Below, piece by piece: positions 11,994 through 43,124 of a stretch of 64,000 nucleotides of DNA (the first letter of the stretch is position 1; each line of letters opens with the position of its first letter). Origin of the DNA: Catenulispora pinistramenti. Lineage in GTDB: Bacteria > Actinomycetota > Actinomycetes > Streptomycetales > Catenulisporaceae. The notes under the pieces are model-generated. The model worked only from the letters and a program-made list of their open reading frames with translations. It made no database searches and had not been told where the DNA came from. The position numbers and the translations under genes were made by a program. The DNA is taken from positions 1 to 64,000 of the forward strand of contig NZ_JAAFYZ010000015.1 of the NCBI RefSeq assembly GCF_018274385.1, written 5' to 3'.

Positions 11994-12992
11994 TTGAACG
12001 TGACCCCGGAGTCCCGGGTCAAGCGCGCGACCATCGAGGACGTGGCAAAGCTGGCCGGGGTGTCGCGGCAGACGGTGTCTCGGGCGGTCAACGACAAGGC
12101 CGAGATCGACGCGGAGACCAAGAAACGGGTCCTGGACGCCGCGCGCAGCCTCAACTACCGGCCCAGCCGGTTCGCCCGCGGGCTGATCCGGCAGGACACC
12201 ACCACGCTCGGTCTGATCATCTCCGACATCGGCAACCCGTTCTTCCCGGAGCTGGCCTCCGGGGTGCTGCGGGCGGCGCAGGCCCGGGACTGGCAGGTCG
12301 TGCTCTACGACACCGGCGAGGACCCGGAGCGCGAGGTCCTGGCGCTGTCGACGCTGGCCGCGCAGGCCGACGTCGGGGCCGGATTCCTCACCTCGCCGGA
12401 GGTCTTCGCGCACGCCGAGCGACTCGGGGTGCCGTTCGCGGTGCTCGATCCGGGCTGGGACGCGGGCGCGGCGCCGGGCGTGGGCATCGACGTCGCCGGC
12501 GGCGTGCGGCTCGCGGTGCGGCACCTGGCTGCGGCCGGGCATCGGCGGATCGGGATGGTCGACGGCGCCGCCGACCCGCGCGACAAGCGGCGGACCAGCT
12601 TCCTGGCGGTCGCCCGGGAACTCGGGCTGGAGGTCGGCGAGGACGATGTGCAGAGCGCGCCGCGCAGCGTCGAGGGCGGGGCCGAGGCGATCGGGGTGTT
12701 GCGGGCGCGTAAGCCGGAGATCACGGCCGTGTTCGCGTACAACGACATCCTGGCGGTCGGCGCGGTGCGCGGTCTGAAGGCCGCGGGCGTGCGGGTCCCG
12801 GAGGACTTCGCGGTGGTCGGCTTCGACGGCCTGCCGTTGGGCGAGTTGGTCGAACCGCCGATCACCTCGGTGTACGTGGACATCCGGCGGATGGGCGAAC
12901 TCGCTGTCGCCGCCGCCGCCGAACTGCTGGCCGGCCGCACGCCGGAGCCGGTGGTGCTGAGCCCGGAGCTGCGGGTACGCGGCTCGGCGTGA
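11994..12992 (+). CDS. LacI-family transcriptional regulator of the glycan locus
   Basis: A 332-residue repressor. The N-terminal helix-turn-helix is ATIEDVAKLAGVSRQTVSRAV (about residues 12-32), with a hinge helix RPSRFARGL. A periplasmic-binding-type sugar sensor follows, ending with the family's FDGLPLGELVEPPITSV segment. A longer reading frame is open upstream, but the TTG at 11994 has an AGGAGG ribosome site 8 nt before it and gives the normal LacI length, so it is the chosen start. It is immediately upstream of a perfect 18-bp palindrome and the sugar ABC operon. It most likely represses that operon and responds to an oligosaccharide; the ligand is unknown. Confidence 0.92.
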   Translation: MNVTPESRVKRATIEDVAKLAGVSRQTVSRAVNDKAEIDAETKKRVLDAARSLNYRPSRFARGLIRQDTTTLGLIISDIGNPFFPELASGVLRAAQARDWQVVLYDTGEDPEREVLALSTLAAQADVGAGFLTSPEVFAHAERLGVPFAVLDPGWDAGAAPGVGIDVAGGVRLAVRHLAAAGHRRIGMVDGAADPRDKRRTSFLAVARELGLEVGEDDVQSAPRSVEGGAEAIGVLRARKPEITAVFAYNDILAVGAVRGLKAAGVRVPEDFAVVGFDGLPLGELVEPPITSVYVDIRRMGELAVAAAAELLAGRTPEPVVLSPELRVRGSA

Positions 12993-35353: not shown

Positions 35354-35755
35354 GTGCGTTCAAGGCGGATGCCGACGATCGGCCAGGTCGCGAGCTACCT
35401 GGGCGTGACGAACCGGGCCATCCGGCACTACCACCAGAGGGGTCTGCTGCCCGAATCCGAGCACGATCTCTCGGGCTACCGACGCTACACACCCGACGCG
35501 ATCCTCGTCCTCGCCCTCGTGAGGATCAAGACCCTGTCGGACACGGGCATCCCGCCGGCGCGGATCGAGCAGCTGATGGCAGCCGGCACGGATGAGTTCG
35601 CGGCGTCGATCGTGTCGATCGACGCGGAGACGCAGCAGCAGGTCAGGGAGCTGAAGCAGCGTCGGAAGCGGATCGCGGAGTCCGGAGAAGACGATCCACG
35701 CCGACGCTGGGCTCGCGCTGGTGGAGGTGGGAGATTCGCCGAGAAGGTTCTCTGA
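35354..35755 (+). CDS. MerR-family regulator, probably C-terminally eroded
   Basis: A 133-residue protein starting with a MerR winged-helix DNA-binding domain (IGQVASYLGVTNRAIRHYHQRGLLPESEHDLSGYRRY, about residues 8-46) and part of a dimerisation helix. After RRKRIAESGEDD the sequence becomes Arg/Gly-rich and unlike family members, which usually continue for 100 or more residues. This suggests a frameshift or replacement of the 3' end where the accessory region begins. The start may be GTG 35354 or ATG 35369. No metal or drug-binding domain remains. Confidence 0.65.
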   Translation: MRSRRMPTIGQVASYLGVTNRAIRHYHQRGLLPESEHDLSGYRRYTPDAILVLALVRIKTLSDTGIPPARIEQLMAAGTDEFAASIVSIDAETQQQVRELKQRRKRIAESGEDDPRRRWARAGGGGRFAEKVL

Positions 35756-35868
35756 CGGTCACGTCTCATCACGTCATGACGCACAAGTCGGCGAGTCGGC
35801 GAGTCGGCGTGTAGTGCGGATTGCGTGGGATGACGATCCGGACAGATGGGGCGTGGGAGGCTGGCACC

Positions 35869-36039
35869 GTGAACCGATTGGCTACCGCGACCTCGCCCTA
35901 CCTCCTCCAGCACGCCGACAACCCGGTGGACTGGCACCAATGGGGCGACGAGGCGTTCGCGGAAGCTCGCCGGCGCGACGTCCCCCTCCTCATCTCCATC
36001 GGGTATGCCGCGTGCCACTGGTGCCAACCGATGCGCTAA
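35869..36039 (+). pseudogene. 5' fragment 1 of the YyaL/DUF255 gene
   Basis: A 56-codon fragment matching the first 52 residues of the intact thioredoxin-domain protein at 40986, in the same frame ([20 protein letters not shown]... to CHWC). It then reads P-M-R-stop. A GTG start, a GGGAGG ribosome site and about 90 bp of upstream sequence resemble fragment 2. It is too short to fold as a thioredoxin. See the findings for the insertion model. Confidence 0.85.
36013..36026. repeat. Candidate att core, copy 1 (TGCCACTGGTGCCA)
   Basis: 14 bp encoding C-H-W-C, 144 nt after the fragment start codon, at exactly the point where homology to the intact gene ends. The same 14-mer marks the boundary in copies 2 and 3. 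Confidence 0.6.
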
Positions 36040-36096
36040 GTACACTAGTCGCGAAATGCTTCGTTCGGCCTGGTCAGCCCCTGATTCGCCGCGAGT

Positions 36097-36600
36097 TCAC
36101 GGCAAGTTGGCGGCGTCCAGCCGTTCGATGAGGGTCGGTTTGCGGTGATGAGTCGAGCGCAGCTCCGCAAGCCTTTCAGCGAACTGTGCGGATCGACCGC
36201 GGCGGCGACTGATCTCGGCGAGATCGATGAGCAATCGGACAGCGGGCGTCGTCCTTCTGCTTCTCGGTGAGCCCGCTGATCCAGGCTTCCATGGCAGCGT
36301 CCTGATCGGCGGCAGGCTTATCGACTATCGGCGCCGATGCCTCTGCTGCGGCCTTCAGCAGGTCTTGATTCACGCGAAGGAAGTCTGCCACCGCACGCTG
36401 GGGCGCTGTCAGCTGCGCGAGGCCCGCCGGAACAGGTGGCTCGATGCCATAGTCGTCTTCTTGACCGCCATCTGACTGGTCGTCCTCGTATTCGTCCAAG
36501 ATGTAGGAGACGCCGGCCAGCCAGGCCAGGTAGAGCGGACGCAGGTCCCCTGCAGACAGTTCGTCCCGACAACGCCTGCCCTCACTCGTACTCGCCGTCG
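36097..36600 (-). pseudogene. Frameshifted remnant of an actinobacterial protein of unknown function
   Basis: Minus-strand reading gives ELSAGDLRPLYLAWLAGV, then EPPVPAGLAQLTAPQRAVADFLRVNQDLLKAAAEAS. Near 36245 a shift of frame continues as RLLIDLAEISRRRG...LIERLDAANLP-stop at 36097. The GDLRxLYLAWL and 'AVADFLRV...DLL..AAEAS' patterns are familiar from the C-terminal region of hypothetical actinobacterial proteins. A stop lies just upstream of about 36600 and no start codon precedes the conserved part, so this is a broken C-terminal relic inside island A. Confidence 0.65.
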
Positions 36601-36646
36601 GTTAAAGGCCTGTCCAGAGTGAGAAACTCGTAGTACTGATACTCGC

Positions 36647-37273
36647 TCATCGGTTGTCCTCCAGTGAGCGAGTGGTCGATGCCGAAGCGTCGAGCAGATC
36701 GAGAAATCCGTCGACCGCTTGCCACAGATGATCCTCCGGGTACCGGCCATTGCGACTATGCGAACGCCTCCAGGCGATATCGTCCCAGCGGTCACGGATT
36801 GCGCGAAGGTGCGCCGTCGACAACTTGAGTTCGCGGGAGATCTGTTCGGCTGCGACGTCGTCATCGGCATCCGCGAGCCGGAAGGGCTCAGCGCGCCGTT
36901 CGGCCAGAGCGTCGAGCGCGGGCGTCTGGACTCCGTCCTCACGCGACCAGATGAGCATGGGCCTGCGGATCTCATGGTTGGCCACCGGCCACTCCGCCGG
37001 CCGCCACAGCCTCAGGACCGGCGCCTTGTCCAGCCTGAGCATGTGAGCCAGTGAGGTGCAGCCCGGTGGCTCGACACCCCAGGGAAGCTCCGCGGCGGGT
37101 AGTCCCATCACGAGAACGACGTTCACGTCGTCGAGATCCTCACCGGGATGATCGAGTACAGGCCCGAAGGCGTATACGGCGAAAAGCCCGTCCTCGCCGG
37201 TAAGGAGCGAGCTGGCCTTGTCGCAATCCTCGGCGATGGTGCGCAGCCGTCGAACGGCGGTGTTGTGGTGCAT
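36647..37273 (-). CDS. DUF7711-like protein of unknown function
   Basis: A 208-residue soluble protein with segments typical of a widespread actinobacterial family: YAFGPVLDHPGEDLDDVNVVLVM, LPWGVEPPG, RLDKAPVLRLWRP and GRYPEDHLWQAVDGFLDLLDA. I recall it as DUF7711, not certain of the number. The 'G.VLD....L..V.V.LV' start is faintly nucleotidyltransferase-like but lacks a clear G-S/D-x-D motif. The ATG at 37273 is chosen over an upstream one because AGGAGG lies 6 nt before it. It begins 27 bp after the ATPase gene, so the two form an operon filling island A. Confidence 0.7.
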   Translation of the reverse strand: MHHNTAVRRLRTIAEDCDKASSLLTGEDGLFAVYAFGPVLDHPGEDLDDVNVVLVMGLPAAELPWGVEPPGCTSLAHMLRLDKAPVLRLWRPAEWPVANHEIRRPMLIWSREDGVQTPALDALAERRAEPFRLADADDDVAAEQISRELKLSTAHLRAIRDRWDDIAWRRSHSRNGRYPEDHLWQAVDGFLDLLDASASTTRSLEDNR

Positions 37274-37300
37274 GGCGAACCTCCTGGAACAAGCATGCAA

Positions 37301-38572
37301 CTAACTCAGCGACCAAAAGCGTTCGAGTGGAAGAACGTGCAGGCGGTCCTCGTAGGTGTACGACCGCTGGCCGAGATTGACGACCGCCCCGCCGACGAAG
37401 GCGCTGCCGAGCCTGTCCCGTAGCAGCCGCAGTCCAGCGAAGTCGCTTCCGGTCACGGTGCCGGACGCCTTGACTTCGATTGCGGCCACGGAGCCTGCGG
37501 CGGTCTCGATGACAAGGTCGACTTCCTGGTGGTCACGCGTGCGGAAATGGGAGAACGCGACCTCCTGCTCCGCCCACCCTGCTTGCTTCATCAGTTCGTT
37601 CACAGCGAATGTCTCAACGAGGTGGCCGAACTGGGTCAGGGCCGCGGGCAGCCGACTCGACAGCTTCTGCGAGGTGAGGCCGATGAGATGAGCGGCGAGT
37701 CCCGTGTCTACGACATGGGCCTTCGCGCTGCGGATCGCGCGGTTCGCGGCTGAGCGAGTGAACGGTTCTAGGCGGTGGATGAGGAAGACAGCCTCCAAGA
37801 GCCCCAGGTAGTCCTTGACTGTCGTGGCATCCAGCCCCACGGCATCGGCGATGTTCGCGACGTTGATCACTTGTCCGGTTTGGTCGGCGAGCCTGCGCAG
37901 AATCTGAGGAAGTACCTGGCGTTGGCGGACCTTGCGGATCTCCAGGACGTCCCGCTCGATGACCAGCGTCACGAAATCACGGAACCAGCGGTCGCGAGAG
38001 CGTCCAGGGTCGCGGGCCAGTGCGAGCGGGAATCCGCCGGCGAGAATGACCTGCTCGTAGTCACTGCGCGTGGTTGTGGCGGGATCGCTGACGACGAGCG
38101 AGGCGGGATCGTTGATCAGGGCGTCGAGGGCGGTTTCCCTGACTCCTGTGATCTCGCCTTGGGACAGCGGCCACATGGTGACGACATGGGCTCGGCCGGT
38201 CAGCGACTGACCCGTGGCGGGGAGGGATCCGTACCGGGTGGATCCGGTCAGTATGAACCGTCCCGCGCGCAGGTCTTTGTTCAGCTCGGCCTTGATGGCG
38301 TCGAGAAGCTGCGGGACGTGCTGGAACTCGTCGATGCAGACCGGGGCCGGTCGGTCGGCCGCGACGAACAACTCCGGATCCGCGGCGACAGCCCGCCTGG
38401 TCGGGAGATCGTCGAGATCCAGGATCTGCACCCCTTCGGCTTCGGCGCAGGCGGCCAGGAGCGTGCTCTTGCCGACGGTGCGTGCCCCGGTCAGAACCAC
38501 CACCGGTTCGTCGGCAAGCAATTCCGCAAGGACGGGCTGAAGCTGCCGGGCGATCAGTCGCTGCTCGGCCAC
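37301..38572 (-). CDS. AAA ATPase with DUF4143 domain
   Basis: A 423-residue ATPase of the AAA_14/DUF4143 type. The Walker A is GARTVGKST (29-37) and the Walker B region is PVCIDEFQ (77-84). A sensor-like ILTGSTRYGSL follows. A winged-helix/DUF4143 region and a C-terminal PD-(D/E)xK-like stretch (HFRTRDHQEVDLVIE...AAIEVKAS) complete it. Such ATPases are frequent cargo of mobile and defence islands, with poorly known function. The GTG at 38572 has a GAGGAG ribosome site; an upstream GTG at 38626 has none. Co-transcribed with the DUF7711-like gene. Confidence 0.88.
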   Translation of the reverse strand: MAEQRLIARQLQPVLAELLADEPVVVLTGARTVGKSTLLAACAEAEGVQILDLDDLPTRRAVAADPELFVAADRPAPVCIDEFQHVPQLLDAIKAELNKDLRAGRFILTGSTRYGSLPATGQSLTGRAHVVTMWPLSQGEITGVRETALDALINDPASLVVSDPATTTRSDYEQVILAGGFPLALARDPGRSRDRWFRDFVTLVIERDVLEIRKVRQRQVLPQILRRLADQTGQVINVANIADAVGLDATTVKDYLGLLEAVFLIHRLEPFTRSAANRAIRSAKAHVVDTGLAAHLIGLTSQKLSSRLPAALTQFGHLVETFAVNELMKQAGWAEQEVAFSHFRTRDHQEVDLVIETAAGSVAAIEVKASGTVTGSDFAGLRLLRDRLGSAFVGGAVVNLGQRSYTYEDRLHVLPLERFWSLS

Positions 38573-38812
38573 GGTGCTCCTCGGATCGGTGATCTGCGGG
38601 TCCCAAGCTAGCACTTTCGCGGCCACTGAATCCCAGAACTACCGAAACAAATTTCCCAGAATTGTCGGACGTCCGATCTTCCGAACTGTCGCGACCGTGC
38701 CAGGGGTCGGCTGCTGCTCGGCACGTCATGGCCCAGGAGTCGGCAGGTCGCCGTCGGTCGGAGGCGCGACAGAATCGTGTCCCGTCTGGCTCGCATGCGG
38801 GAGGCTGGGACC

Positions 38813-38983
38813 GTGAACCGACTGGCTACCGCGACCTCGCCTTATCTGCTCCAGCACGCCGATAACCCAGTCGATTGGTGACCATGGGGCGAAGAGGTGT
38901 TCGAGGAGGCGCGGCGCAGAGATGTGCCGATTCTGCTGTCCATCGGGTACGCCGCGTGCCACTGGTGCCACCTGATGCGTTAA
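38813..38983 (+). pseudogene. 5' fragment 2 of the YyaL/DUF255 gene
   Basis: A second 171-nt copy of the gene start, same length as fragment 1 and closer to it than to the intact gene. It has an internal TGA at 38879 (codon 23), so it is not translatable through. It ends L-M-R-stop after CHWC. The ribosome site GGGAGG is kept. Confidence 0.85.
38957..38970. repeat. Candidate att core, copy 2 (TGCCACTGGTGCCA)
   Basis: Identical 14-mer at the 3' homology boundary of fragment 2, again 144 nt after its start codon. Both fragments then share the element-like end NNTGATGCGYTAAGTNNACTAGT. Confidence 0.6.
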
Positions 38984-39042
38984 GTGGACTAGTTGGTTCG
39001 GTGGAGAACCGCTTGGTAGGTCGATTCTCGGCCGTGTTGTCG

Positions 39043-40179
39043 TCAGTGGGAATATGGATCGGACAGGGTCATAGGCGTGCGAGCAATGCGAAGCGTTTGT
39101 TCGGGGAACCGTGTGCCGGCCGTGTAGTAGCGGGCGCGTGTGCGACCGACGGGTTCGAGTACTTCAGCTGTTACCAGATCTCGTAGATCACGTTGGGCCT
39201 GCTGCGTGCTGAGATTTTCGGCGTGCTCATAGCGGGAACGACGGACTCGGCCGGCCATCGCCACGTCATGGAGGGCGGACACAATCCGATCGTCGCGGCC
39301 CGTGCCCGCTGCGAAGTCCGACAACTCGGTCCACACTCGCCCTGAACGGTCGAGCCGGCCTTGTACCGTTTGAGCTTGCTGGTGGTAAGCCGTGAGGTTG
39401 AAGCGAAGCCAGCTGGAGACGTCCTGATCCGGAAGGTACTCGGCACCACGGCGTGCAAGCTCGCGGTAGTACTCCCAGGTATTGCCAGGTCGTCCCAACC
39501 ACGCCTCGATGGACGAGAATTCGGGGGCGAGAACGCCTTCGCGTGCGATCATCAGTGTCTGCAGTGACCGTGACATGCGCCCGTTGCCATCGGCCCAGGG
39601 ATGGATCGAAACCAGGTCCAGGTGTGCCATCGCCGCCCGTACAAGGGGATGGCTGTGGTCGTCCCCGTTCAGCCAATCGACGAGTTCATACATGAGACCG
39701 GGGATATCCGCCGCGTCCGGAGCTGTATAGGCGGCGATGCTGGGGTCGCGGGCATCAGTGACGTAGACGGGTCCGCGACGCCACTGCCCGGCTGGCTTCC
39801 GATTGCTGTGTCGGTGGCCTTGCAGCATCCAGTGCAGCCCGTTGAGGAGGCCCTTGCTGTAGCTGAAGTCGCCCGAATCATGCAGAGCTTGGACGTACGT
39901 CATCATCTGTTGGTAAGCGAGTGTCTCCTGGCGGTCGTCTTCGGAGACGTCAACGTCACGCTCGCCGTCGAGCAGGTCTTCGACGTCGACTGTGGAGACT
40001 TTGAAGCCTTCGATGGAGTTCGACGCCGCCACTGCGTCAGCCGTGAGGAACTTCCGCAGTCCTGCTGTCCACCTCGAGGGCGAGGAGGCTACTTGGTGCT
40101 TCAATCTGTCCCGGGCACGGTCGATCTCGCCGAGTACACGCTGGTCATCGGCGTCGAGCTTGGGTGTCGGGTACAGCAT
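39043..40179 (-). CDS. Fic-domain protein (class II, self-inhibited)
   Basis: A 378-residue protein that probably transfers AMP (or another nucleotide moiety) to a target protein. The Fic motif HPWADGNGRMSR (193-204) has the catalytic His193 and the phosphate-binding GNGR. An N-terminal inhibitory helix S-N-S-I-E-G (53-58) matches the (S/T)xxxE(G/N) motif, so activity is held in check in cis. A Fic_N-like region precedes and a C-terminal winged helix (SRYEHAENLSTQQAQRDLRDL) follows. It is 108 bp downstream of the SeqA-like/RAMA gene on the same strand. A classical separate antitoxin is not seen. Confidence 0.92.
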   Translation of the reverse strand: MLYPTPKLDADDQRVLGEIDRARDRLKHQVASSPSRWTAGLRKFLTADAVAASNSIEGFKVSTVDVEDLLDGERDVDVSEDDRQETLAYQQMMTYVQALHDSGDFSYSKGLLNGLHWMLQGHRHSNRKPAGQWRRGPVYVTDARDPSIAAYTAPDAADIPGLMYELVDWLNGDDHSHPLVRAAMAHLDLVSIHPWADGNGRMSRSLQTLMIAREGVLAPEFSSIEAWLGRPGNTWEYYRELARRGAEYLPDQDVSSWLRFNLTAYHQQAQTVQGRLDRSGRVWTELSDFAAGTGRDDRIVSALHDVAMAGRVRRSRYEHAENLSTQQAQRDLRDLVTAEVLEPVGRTRARYYTAGTRFPEQTLRIARTPMTLSDPYSH

Positions 40180-40287
40180 GCATCAATGATAGTTTGACGC
40201 AATCATTGCGTCAAACTAGGCTCGATTCCAGAACCTGCGAGGACTCGGGATGCCGGGATGGCCGTAGTCGGCCGGCGGAGTGGCCGC

Positions 40288-40680
40288 CTAGACGAGATCT
40301 CCGAGGCGCTGGCCGGTACGTTCGAGCACCCATTCTCGTGGCCCACTTGCCTCACGGCCGACGTACGCCTTCAAGGCCGGCGAAGGTTCCGCGAACCTGC
40401 GCCCGTCATCGATCTGTAGGCACCCGTCATCGGTGACCTCGGCGTAGAACGTTCGCTTCTTGCGAGGCTGGTGGTGGACCAACCGGTCTCCAGGGCGTAG
40501 TGCTCCTGACTTCAGCAGGGGAAGGAGAACGCCCGGTTTTGCCGGAGCCGTCGGTGTCGGGGGCCGGCTCAGAAGCACTCGCCGCAGCACGTCGTTGGGG
40601 TCGCGATCAGTGAACGGGATCGCGAGTGCCTGCAGGCTTGCCCAGACCTCATCGTCGATCTCGATCTTCCTTCGAGCCAT
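40288..40680 (-). CDS. SeqA-N-like plus RAMA-domain protein
   Basis: A 130-residue protein. The first 35 residues (RRKIEIDDEVWASLQALAIPFTDRDPNDVLRRVLL) look like the ribbon-helix-helix oligomerisation domain of SeqA. After a Pro linker, LLPLLKSGALRPGDRLVHH...AEVTDDGCLQIDDGRRFAEPSPALKAYVG...W resembles RAMA/DUF4357, a domain proposed to read modified DNA. The ATG at 40680 has a GGAAGG ribosome site and starts the conserved part. It lies upstream of the Fic gene in island B and downstream of a symmetric promoter region that it may bind. Domain calls are from pattern memory. Confidence 0.72.
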   Translation of the reverse strand: MARRKIEIDDEVWASLQALAIPFTDRDPNDVLRRVLLSRPPTPTAPAKPGVLLPLLKSGALRPGDRLVHHQPRKKRTFYAEVTDDGCLQIDDGRRFAEPSPALKAYVGREASGPREWVLERTGQRLGDLV

Positions 40681-40704
40681 GCTCAGCGCCTTCCTTGGTT
40701 CCTC

Positions 40705-40743
40705 TACCCTTTGAAGGTTAACGATGGCAAGCTTGCAAGGGTA
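40705..40743 (-). promoter_or_regulatory. Symmetric promoter/operator of the RAMA-Fic pair
   Basis: TACCCTT (40705-40711) and AAGGGTA (40737-40743) are inverted repeats enclosing a perfect GCAAGCTTGC palindrome (40727-40736). On the minus strand TTGCCA, an 18-nt spacer and TAGAGG overlap the repeats. This is a likely autoregulated promoter. Confidence 0.45.
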
Positions 40744-40985
40744 CGTCAAGGCTCACGCGATTCGCTGACGAGGGGTGAATGGTCGTCTGCGATGGATCGG
40801 CTCAAGGCGGTCGAAGCGTTGGCGCTAGCTAGTCCTCGTCACACGCGGGTGGCGGGGCATCGAGCGAAGCCCGCGACGAGCGCCCGTCTTGCCCACGCCA
40901 TGGCCGCGGAAAGTGCGAAACGGCTCGGTGTCTTCATGTGTCGAAGGCCAGGGTGGTGTTGAAGGGTCATGCGAGGATTGACCTC

Positions 40986-43124
40986 ATGAACCGGCTCGCG
41001 AACGCCACTTCCCCCTACCTCCTCCAGCACGCCGACAACCCCGTCGACTGGTACCAATGGGGCGATGAGGCGTTCGCCGAGGCGCGGCGCCGGGATGTTC
41101 CACTCCTCATCTCCATCGGCTACGCCGCGTGCCACTGGTGCCATGTGATGGCGCACGAGAGCTTCGAGGATGAGGCGATCGCGGCGTTGATGAATGAGAA
41201 GTACGTGTGTGTGAAGGTGGATCGGGAGGAGCGGCCTGATGTGGATGCCGTCTATATGGCGGCTACGCAGGCGATGACGGGGGGTGGGGGGTGGCCGATG
41301 ACGGTGTTCGCCACGCCGGAGGGGAAGCCTTTTCAGGCCGGCACGTACTATCCGCCGGTGGCTCGGCATGGGTTGCCTTCGTTCCGGCAGTTGTTGGTGG
41401 CCGTGGATCGTGCCTGGGGTGATATCCGGGACGATGTGGTGCGGGCCGGGGATGGGCTGGTTGCGGAGTTGGCGCACAATGCGCGGATCGTGGCTGGGGC
41501 GGATGGGGTGCCGGATGCCGGGGTGTTGGGTGGTGCGGTTGGGGTTTTGTTGCGGGAGTTCGATGCCGAGCGGGGCGGGTTCGGGGGTGCGCCGAAGTTT
41601 CCGCCGTCGATGACGTTGGAGCAGTTGCTGCGGCATCATGCGCGGACCGGGGATGTGGACGCGCTCGCGATGGTGTTGCGGACGTGTGAGGCGATGGCGC
41701 GGGGCGGCATCTACGACCAGCTCGGCGGGGGGTTCGCGCGCTACTCCGTGGACAATGCGTGGGTGGTGCCGCACTTCGAGAAGATGCTGTATGACAATGC
41801 CCTGCTTCTCCGCGCCTACCTGCATCTGCGTCGGGCGACCGGTGACGCGGTGGCGTTGCGTGTCGTCGGCCAGACCGCCGACTGGATGCTGCGGGAGCTG
41901 TGGCTGGGAGGCGCGGGCGGTGGGTTCGCCTCCTCGCTCGACGCCGACACGGACGGGGTCGAGGGCAAGTTCTACGCCTGGGACGCCGATCAGTTGGTCG
42001 ATGTCCTCGGTGAGGAGGACGGGGCCTGGGCCGCGGAAGTCTTCAATGTGACGGCCGAGGGCACCTTCGAGCACGGCCTGTCCGTCCTGCAACTGTTGCA
42101 GGAGCCTGATGATGTGGGCCGGTTTGAGCGCGTGCGCGGTCGGCTGTTCGAGGCGCGCCGCGACCAGCGCACGGCGCCGGGCCGGGACGACAAGGTCGTG
42201 GCGGCGTGGAACGGGCTCGCGGTGGCGGCGTTGGCCGAGGCCGGGGCGTTGACCGGGCGGCCGGAGTTGGTGGCGGCGGCGCGACAGACTGCTGAGATGC
42301 TGGAGCGCGTCCACTGGGACGACAAGGCGGGACGGCTGACGCGCACCTCGCGCGACGGCGTTGCGGGCAGCCAGAATCCGGGCGTGCTGGAGGACTACGC
42401 CAACGTCGCCGAGGGCCTTCTCGCGCTGTACGGGGTGACCGGCGAGCCGCGCTGGTTCGCGTTCGCGGGCCGGTTGTTGGACGTCGTCCTCGACGAGTTC
42501 CGCGATGAATCAGGCCTCTTCTATGACACCGCCGCCGATGCCGAGGCCCTGATCTTCCGGCCGGCGGATCCGACCGACAACGCCTCGCCCGCCGGTACCT
42601 CCGCCGCGGCCGGTGCCCTGCTGACCTACGCCGCGCTTACCGGTTCGGGACGCCATCGCGAGGCCGCGGAGCAGGCGCTGCGCTTCACCGGTGCGCTGGC
42701 CGAGAAGGCGCCGAGGTTCGCGGGCTGGGGGCTGGCGGTCGCCGAGGCCGTGGCGGACGGGCCGCGTGAGGTGGCGATCGTGGGCGAGTGGGGTGCGGGG
42801 ACGTCGGGGACGTCAAACGGCGCTGGGACGGACAAGGGCGAGAGGACAGCTCAGGGCGACGGCACCGACGCAGCCGGCAGCGCCGACGAATCCCCCAGCA
42901 GCCAGGCCTTCCGCGCCCTGCACCAGATCGTCTTCGCCAGCAACGCCCCGGGCCTGGTCATCGCGGTGACCCCGCCGGTCGGGACGGCGGCCGGCGAAAG
43001 CCTCCCGGAACTGCTCAGCGGCCGGCCCACCATCAACGGTGAACCGGCCGCGTACGTCTGCCGTGGCTTCGTATGTCAGACCCCGACGACAGTCCTCTCA
43101 GAGCTGGCGGTACAGCTGCGCTAG
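40986..43124 (+). CDS. Thioredoxin-domain protein (YyaL/DUF255, SPATA20 family), intact copy
   Basis: A 712-residue protein. An N-terminal thioredoxin-like domain has CHWC at residues 49-52, and the family's [16 protein letters not shown] and [10 protein letters not shown] segments. A six-hairpin (alpha/alpha)6 barrel follows ([36 protein letters not shown]). Function is not firmly known. A hydrophilic 40-residue insertion ([19 protein letters not shown] region) lies near residue 605. The ATG is chosen by alignment with the two fragments; the frame is open 16 codons upstream. Its upstream sequence differs from that of the fragments. Its stop overlaps the convergent gene at 43121. Confidence 0.92.
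41130..41143. repeat. Candidate att core, copy 3, inside the intact gene
   Basis: Third TGCCACTGGTGCCA, at codons 49-53 of the intact gene. Here the reading frame continues (V-M-A-H-E-S-F) instead of stopping. Confidence 0.6.

Follow-up and report, generated by a model that had tools for sequence, protein, structure and literature searches.

A stretch of 64,000 nt from the Catenulispora pinistramenti genome (contig NZ_JAAFYZ010000015.1, positions 1 to 64,000; hereafter the window) contains a DUF255 / Thioredox_DsbH gene preceded by two partial copies of its start, each followed by a small set of unrelated genes. The locus is probably a tandem array of two islands, A and B, integrated site-specifically in the codons of the CHWC motif of the DUF255 gene. 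An incoming element would carry at its right end a promoter region and DUF255 codons 1 to ~52, up to a short core. Recombination at the core would displace the resident 5′ end and leave it on the left as a fragment, with the element's own arm (the tail) behind it; the imported 5′ end would be joined to the remainder of the gene, in frame both in the window and in the genus. Fragment 1 would then be the oldest displaced start; fragment 2 would have come in with island A and been displaced in turn by island B. An enzyme like the tyrosine integrase encoded by another actinobacterium (G133) may have made, or may still make, the junction; the window islands would be integrase-less relatives, with the integrase lost or never present, possibly mobilised by a passing integrase, and homologous recombination between gene starts may reshuffle the array. 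Comparison among related genomes documents a fixed junction, a tail common to different cargoes, swapped 5′ ends, an uninterrupted counterpart and horizontal movement of cargo.

The preliminary description of this DNA, which was made from the letters alone, had placed two 171-nt fragments at 35869-36039 and 38813-38983 and the intact gene at 40986-43124, and these coordinates, the fragment lengths and the stop codons were all verified in the window genome (G000 in the genome handles used throughout; 11.46 Mb; its family is denoted f1). The 14-mer TGCCACTGGTGCCA lies exactly 144 nt past the start codon in all three copies, as had been claimed. Homology of the fragments to the intact gene is indeed lost behind it, and a common tail stands behind both fragments; the TAAGT..ACTAGT motif described there is real and belongs to a longer conserved tail of 24 nt. 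The reported similarity over ~90 bp upstream of the fragments was only partly right, with ungapped identities of 60% at -90 to -60 and 63% at -30 to 0 and only 30% at -60 to -30. The genome contains exactly three copies of the 14-mer, all at the DUF255 locus (the backward control pattern matched once). The three gene starts belong to a 195-nt repeat family with copies at 35855, 38799 and 40972, and over nt 1-158 the identity is 85% between fragment 1 and the intact gene, 80% between fragment 2 and the intact gene, and 81% between the fragments. Codon differences from the intact gene are mostly synonymous in fragment 1 (20 synonymous, 3 not), as expected of a former functional gene start; the corresponding numbers for fragment 2 are 17 and 9, and this fragment has an in-frame TGA at codon 23 (38879-38881) that was absent from the preliminary description. 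The features of the locus are as follows.

35869..36012, + strand: putative displaced DUF255 5′ end, fragment 1, codons 1-48 (PF03190 match, model 2-56; 85% to the intact gene over nt 1-158)
36013..36026, + strand: core 14-mer TGCCACTGGTGCCA, codons C-H-W-C, junction 1; homology to the intact gene stops here
36027..36051, + strand: tail 1, with stop codon TAA; putative element left end, attachment-arm-like (24 nt common to fragments with different cargo, then random)
36176..36499, - strand: remnant of a 432-aa protein, family unknown, longer in related islands (deletions relative to the G012 island; full-length relatives in G006, G007 and G009)
36647..37300, - strand: DUF7711 protein, 217 aa (PF24821, E 2.5e-67)
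37301..38626, - strand: AAA_14/DUF4143 ATPase, PADLOC candidate defence family PDC-S01 (PF13635, E 3.9e-43; PF13173, E 8.9e-23; PDC-S01, E 4.3e-153)
38773..38812, + strand: right-hand end of island A, from its position a putative promoter for the imported 5′ end (the 98% block shared with G012 ends nearby; colinear with the stretch before the G011 intact gene)
38813..38956, + strand: second DUF255 5′ fragment, in-frame TGA at codon 23 (PF03190 search; sequence comparison)
38957..38970, + strand: core 14-mer, junction 2 (pattern match)
38971..38995, + strand: tail 2 (core plus tail 87% to the left end of the G011 Fic island)
39043..40179, - strand: Fic-family protein, SoFic-like (PF02661, E 1.1e-15; PADLOC SoFic, E 5.8e-47)
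40288..40749, - strand: RAMA-domain protein (PF18755, E 6.2e-11; PDC-S14, E 2.1e-5)
40986..43124, + strand: intact DUF255 / Thioredox_DsbH gene (PF03190, E 6.6e-73; core at 41130-41143)

A MerR-type regulator gene (window 35354-35755) lies immediately left of fragment 1 and forms a single-member cluster among the open reading frames (ORFs) picked at the genus loci.

The same locus was compared across family f1 by a PF03190 profile search of 14 genomes, 10 of them Catenulispora. Fragments of the 5′ end stand upstream of a full copy in seven of the 10 genus genomes (G000, G005, G006, G007, G009, G011 and G012; 11 fragments), a full copy alone is present in G008 and G013 as well as in all four f1 genomes of other genera, and no PF03190 gene of this kind was found in G010 (77% complete). 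All 11 fragments have the same end point. Their mean identity to the intact genes is 0.84-0.91 over the 30 nt that end with the 14-mer and drops to 0.56 over the next 6 nt, 0.35 over the following 6 and 0.22-0.37 thereafter. Fragments with different cargo remain similar to each other (33 pairs, those with the G005 fragment excluded; cargo classes assigned by the analyst), at 0.70-0.80 over the 24 nt past the 14-mer (approximately TGATGCGYTAAGNNCACTAGTCG) and 0.19-0.33 beyond. Different cargoes on a common short arm are what an attachment site gives. When the tail pattern was searched in the 14 f1 genomes with up to three mismatches, nine of its 12 matches fell at the locus and three elsewhere, each with three mismatches; since a reversed control pattern gave five matches, the three off-locus ones mean nothing. 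A search for the tail across actinobacteria had been suggested in the preliminary description; the Catenulispora pattern occurred in none of 393 other genomes of the class (a draw that lists no further genus member), and the tail in family f2 is a different one. In G006 (L037, oriented 12443-12601), a strongly diverged further gene-start copy with 45% protein identity lies upstream of an RDD gene and is possibly an older layer of the array.

Congeners also supply a comparison of the kind that the preliminary description had called for: G005 and G011 preserve a natural unfilled site. In the window, the DUF4143 ATPase gene and promoter region are followed by fragment 2 and then by the Fic island; in G011, it is the intact gene that comes after the same ATPase gene and promoter region. 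Identity between the two genomes over the ATPase gene, promoter region and gene start is 78-96% per 50-nt window up to gene nt ~164 and random afterwards, and G005 has the same colinearity with its intact gene, minus part of the stretch before the start. This continuation of the fragment-2 context into an intact gene indicates that the Fic island entered a start that is still uninterrupted in congeners. None of the contrary outcomes envisaged in the preliminary description appeared, given a site without interruption, an abrupt boundary and fragments that are not simple copies of their own gene. Its central proposal, repeated integration at the CHWC codons with replacement of the promoter region and 5′ end, is supported by the junction, the tail, the unfilled site and the 5′/3′ discordance of the gene.

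Gene starts have been swapped between species, and cargo has moved horizontally. Island A cargo is 98.2% identical between G000 and G012 over 2206 nt and the sequence from the gene start onward only 79.5% over 3481 nt, which implies recent horizontal exchange. Over the gene body, the Fic island of the window matches that of G011 at 84-98% identity, and the fragments preceding the two islands are only 72-78% identical (gapped alignment; the identity row of 39-47% for G011 fragment 1 and a 50% figure for the Fic left ends, both distorted by indel misalignment, were not used). The 5′ end is the more divergent part of the gene in G000-G006 (13/158 differences vs. 6/382 in the 3′ part, p 3.7e-4), in G000-G005 (36/158 vs. 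42/382, p 6.9e-4) and, at p<0.05, in 12 of 36 genus pairs altogether (uncorrected, pairs non-independent); in fragment-free genera, taken as a control, it is the less divergent part in 6/6 pairs. Fragment 2 of G011 shares 93% identity with the start of the intact G013 gene, against 82% with that of its own genome. In a tree of 158 columns, with one of 17 inner branches strongly supported and 11 open, this fragment groups with the G013 intact start (82/98), as does window fragment 2 with the G011 and G005 intact starts (94/91, 91/97). The truncated fragments of G005, G007 (fragment 1), G009 and G012 (fragment 1) were left out of both the start comparison and the tree.

Beyond the genus, a survey of the order covered 215 genomes, of which 30 with at least two PF03190 matches and one without were re-searched. 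Fragments of the 5′ end were found in 14 f2 genomes, all of genus g4 (presumably Streptomyces), and the ends of 12 of the 16 counted f2 fragments lie at model positions 51-58 (p 3e-13 against a uniform distribution of ends, the range having been picked after inspection). These 16 leave out G479 (model 2-121, serine-recombinase element), the second matches of G477, G472, G462 and G513 (split gene starts), G441 (1-22), G453 (1-26, ~48 kb off), G407 (paralogue-like) and G422 (94-156), together with weak matches that start at about model 8-28 and extend past 80. In 11 aligned f2 fragments, the identity to intact genes is 0.91 as far as the 14-mer reaches and 0.22 directly beyond it. The commonest f2 tail pattern occurs at seven places in 6/391 genomes, with zero control matches, and it newly revealed G579 and G739. 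Outside the order, 11/256 genomes have at least two PF03190 matches. Four of them (G072, G014, G154 and G110) carry fragments that end at the core or a few nt away, and G133 adds one more; the other six are without a CHWC-ended fragment. Junctions were read in six of the 11; G047 is uncounted, as its sequence continues as a gene, and G098, G099, G100, G203 and G228 were judged from the match table. Fragments ending at the CHWC codons therefore occur in seven actinobacterial families, f1 and f2 included.

Five f2 genomes (G462, G472, G477, G513 and G739; L091, L130, L161, L162 and L163) may provide a view of the opposite end. They have one recognisable start type, 83-93% identical over 150 nt, and the next 420 nt of their DUF255 genes are 71-82% identical. 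The start reaches TGCCAC, and 13-17 nt (e.g., TTAGCTTCCGGTAATT) separate it from CAYTGGTGYCA, where the gene resumes. The 13-17-nt insert is probably the right arm of an element, and its position before CAYTGGTGYCA points to an 11-bp core (CACTGGTGCCA) with an arm on either side. In G520, an intact gene is preceded by a displaced fragment with this same right end.

A candidate for the enzyme comes from two other families. Immediately upstream of the intact gene of G014, the opposite strand encodes a 42-aa peptide that resembles an integrase N-terminus. It matches two of 394 class genomes, G014 itself and G133, and has no match in plasmids or phages. In G133 it corresponds to a 468-aa protein (PF00589, E 8.8e-6) on contig C78. 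This contig ends in a DUF255 start, and the gene for the protein lies divergently ~0.1 kb upstream of that start and downstream of the type I restriction genes hsdM, hsdS and hsdR. Stretches of tyrosine-recombinase type (GGLRLGE, NLRHHAAT and HYVRAG) can be recognised in it by eye, and it is probably a tyrosine integrase, with the G014 peptide probably a remnant at the same place. Its single plasmid match is weak (25% over 61%, Iamia), and none was found in phages or viral contigs. Another G133 contig, C125, begins with a CHWC-terminated fragment and also carries AbiEi; over 56 nt, its tail has 61-71% ungapped identity to the G072 and G014 tails (57-61% in the 54 nt that follow), and GCAGGTCAG is present in all three. 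A search for carriers was negative for both the Catenulispora tail and the f2 form in viral contigs (0 matches each). Fragment DNA matched DUF255-like sequence in seven plasmid records and one phage record; the latter, labelled 'Bacteriophage sp.', was rejected; it is a 4.5-kb scaffold without annotation that breaks off within the match.

The DUF255 gene appears to be used by another recombinase as well. A large serine recombinase (PF00239, PF07508) occurs beside DUF255 in f2 genomes: its homologues of at least 78% identity are all (9/9) encoded no more than 0.7 kb upstream of that gene. Homologues at E≤1e-60 are present in 19/215 genomes, those at most 49% identical being elsewhere in every genome for which the place of DUF255 was listed. 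Just before the serine recombinase gene, old remnants of the 5′ end run out at codon ~268 (PHFEK); such a remnant is clear by blastn in G479 and G422 (seven tested) and was recognised by eye in G436 and G238. This family marks a different junction, with the same strategy, in the same gene. The G479 element is compact, roughly 3 kb (family seen at L090:3291-4952 (-), L114-L120 and L080).

A number of observations weigh against the reading as serial site-specific integration. No recombinase was found in the CHWC islands of the genus or of f2. The preliminary description had likewise seen none in the window, which agrees with the scanned proteins, and neither of two query recombinases matched the genus islands by tblastn; the family scans of the genus covered 27/52 ORF clusters by Pfam, tblastn sees relatives of the two queries only, and the scans took in ORFs of at least 70 aa (80-90 aa in later scans) that passed a filter on GC content at third codon positions (GC3). 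The G133 integrase scores 26.0 bits, just below the curated Pfam cut-off of 27.1, has no match at E≤1 among solved structures, and appears by eye to have one usual active-site histidine replaced. Its gene and the G133 fragment are on separate contigs, the link between the two being inferred; moreover, the evidence for the integrase comes from one genome and a remnant in a second, each of another family and with a different tail. Within the genus, the fragments of G005, G007 (fragment 1), G009 and G012 (fragment 1) are truncated or decayed, 22/36 pairs have no significant 5′/3′ difference and two are reversed (G006-G007 and G007-G008), and the 5′ copies are alike within G007 and within G012, which implies that gene conversion also acts. 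Lastly, the imported start is out of frame in the five f2 genomes with the right-hand arm, so the gene is not restored there and integration does not always keep it. The proposal that the host gene stays functional fits the window, but not these five.

In a rival account, one or a few ancient insertions would have produced the tail and the duplicated 5′ end, and the islands would have spread later only by homologous recombination and gene conversion between the ~160-nt 5′ copies and the gene flanks, with no recombinase. The absence of a detected recombinase from the seven fragment-bearing genus genomes, the likeness of 5′ copies within G007 and G012, and the reshuffling of cargo order between species would agree with this, but it leaves unexplained the different cargoes at one 24-nt tail, the same-codon junctions that in other families are followed by other tails, the right-hand arm that precedes the core in the five f2 genomes and the G133 integrase, and we consider it unlikely. 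A plain tandem duplication of the gene start, followed by insertions between the copies and the gene, is scarcely credible: the fragments and the gene do lie in tandem and in the same orientation, yet their common end point and foreign tail recur in many species, some fragments are nearer to other species' genes than to their own, and f2 fragments cluster in their ends at model positions 51-58 (12/16). The large serine recombinase is very improbable as the maker of the CHWC junction, despite its location at most 0.7 kb upstream of DUF255 in all nine genomes with close (at least 78% identical) homologues, because its left junction is at codon ~268 (PHFEK) with a different tail and no homologue at E≤1e-60 exists in the 10 genus genomes.

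The view taken in the preliminary description, in which an integrase encoded elsewhere in the cell still mobilises non-autonomous islands in trans, is consistent with a conserved tail in islands without an integrase and with cargo exchange at 98% identity between species. It is nevertheless doubtful, since the 14 f1 genomes offer no free tail site beyond the three control-level matches with three mismatches, and the G133/G014 integrase peptide was unmatched in G000, the sole genus genome listed for that search. Decayed integrase elements are at least as likely as mobilisation in trans, given the probable tyrosine integrase or its remnant beside the gene in other families. In a broader and more tentative interpretation, to which we give somewhat less than an even chance, the CHWC codons could be a class-wide docking site of a little-known tyrosine-integrase lineage, and the integrase-free derivatives could act as exchangeable defence cassettes, each regenerating the site so that the array keeps growing while the host gene is usually kept.

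The cargo is varied and includes many candidate defence genes, assigned by family matches only; judging from these families, it is probably under selection for phage defence. All nine DUF7711 matches in the 14 f1 genomes are on DUF255-locus contigs. At the CHWC junction of G579, the cargo comprises type I-E Cas3e, Cas8e, Cas11e and Cas7e and a Cas6-type PF08798 protein, and these genes (L131:1644-9737) sit between the CHWC fragment and the intact gene. The cargo of G739 includes Gabija GajA and GajB, PglX/type IIG and HEC-01, and other genomes contribute GmrSD_N (G464), Uma2 (PDC-S03; G398), a PIN-domain gene (G435), a TOTE primase-helicase (G072), and a Schlafen-type helicase with an RHS/WXG100 protein (G012). 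Some islands contain genes without a defence match, and three large ORFs of G012 have PDB matches to a GntR-type regulator, a phospholipase C and a chitin-binding module. The order of cargo is reshuffled between species of the genus. A cargo protein of 432-456 aa (L037:1335-2705, +) has no match in Pfam, PADLOC or NCBIfam; distant relatives of the 432-aa form are found on plasmids (27 records; Actinobacteria, cyanobacteria and Acinetobacter) and on one viral contig, which gives no clue to a carrier.

These findings may be of use in several respects. One exact address at which actinobacteria stack candidate defence genes would make new defence systems findable next to DUF255. The locus may also represent a natural 5′-replacing, self-regenerating integration platform in Streptomyces-like bacteria, with the candidate integrase as a possible genetic tool, and it offers an example of repeated exchange of a gene's first 52 codons and promoter region. 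The preliminary description knew of no described element that uses this gene, and a literature search on DUF255/thioredoxin-domain integration and actinobacterial defence islands likewise yielded no paper on this site, which is weak evidence of absence, as subscription papers were mostly uncovered.

The present islands resemble defence islands and integration hotspots, as generally understood, in that their cargo matches known or candidate defence families, and differ from them by a sharp junction within a coding sequence, with 5′ replacement, that recurs in seven families. Set beside integron cassette arrays, each unit in the window is seen to be bounded by a gene-start copy. Unlike large serine recombinase elements, whose family here uses codon ~268, the islands use the CHWC junction. 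Insertion at the 5′ end of a gene is known for the integrative and conjugative element (ICE) SXT/R391 in prfC and the integrative and mobilisable element (IME) IMEVchUSA3 in dusA (PMC4344509 for the prfC 5′ end). As to the new promoter and in-frame N-terminus of that type, the picture is mixed: the swapped 5′ ends are in frame in the window and the genus and out of frame in the five f2 genomes, and the promoter is a putative one. The SXT/prfC and IME/dusA elements carry an integrase and conjugate or are mobilised by conjugative plasmids, whereas the window islands have no detected recombinase, are arrayed, and target the CHWC motif of DUF255. Accretion has been described for cis-mobilisable elements (CIMEs), which lack integration genes, have att-like flanks and are stacked at one site with successive att copies (PMC5704250). 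The window and genus islands are CIME-like in having no recombinase family among the scanned proteins (an unscanned or short ORF may still encode a different kind of recombinase) and in their predicted attL and attR, i.e., core plus tail on the left and the core at the rejoined gene on the right. They are unlike CIME arrays in that an integrase-bearing relative at the same site is seen only in another family (G133), that no conjugation genes were recognised among the scanned proteins, and that the repeated site is a gene start rather than a gene end. The window islands are thus best read as integrase-less relatives that combine CIME-like accretion with 5′-end replacement of the SXT/prfC kind.

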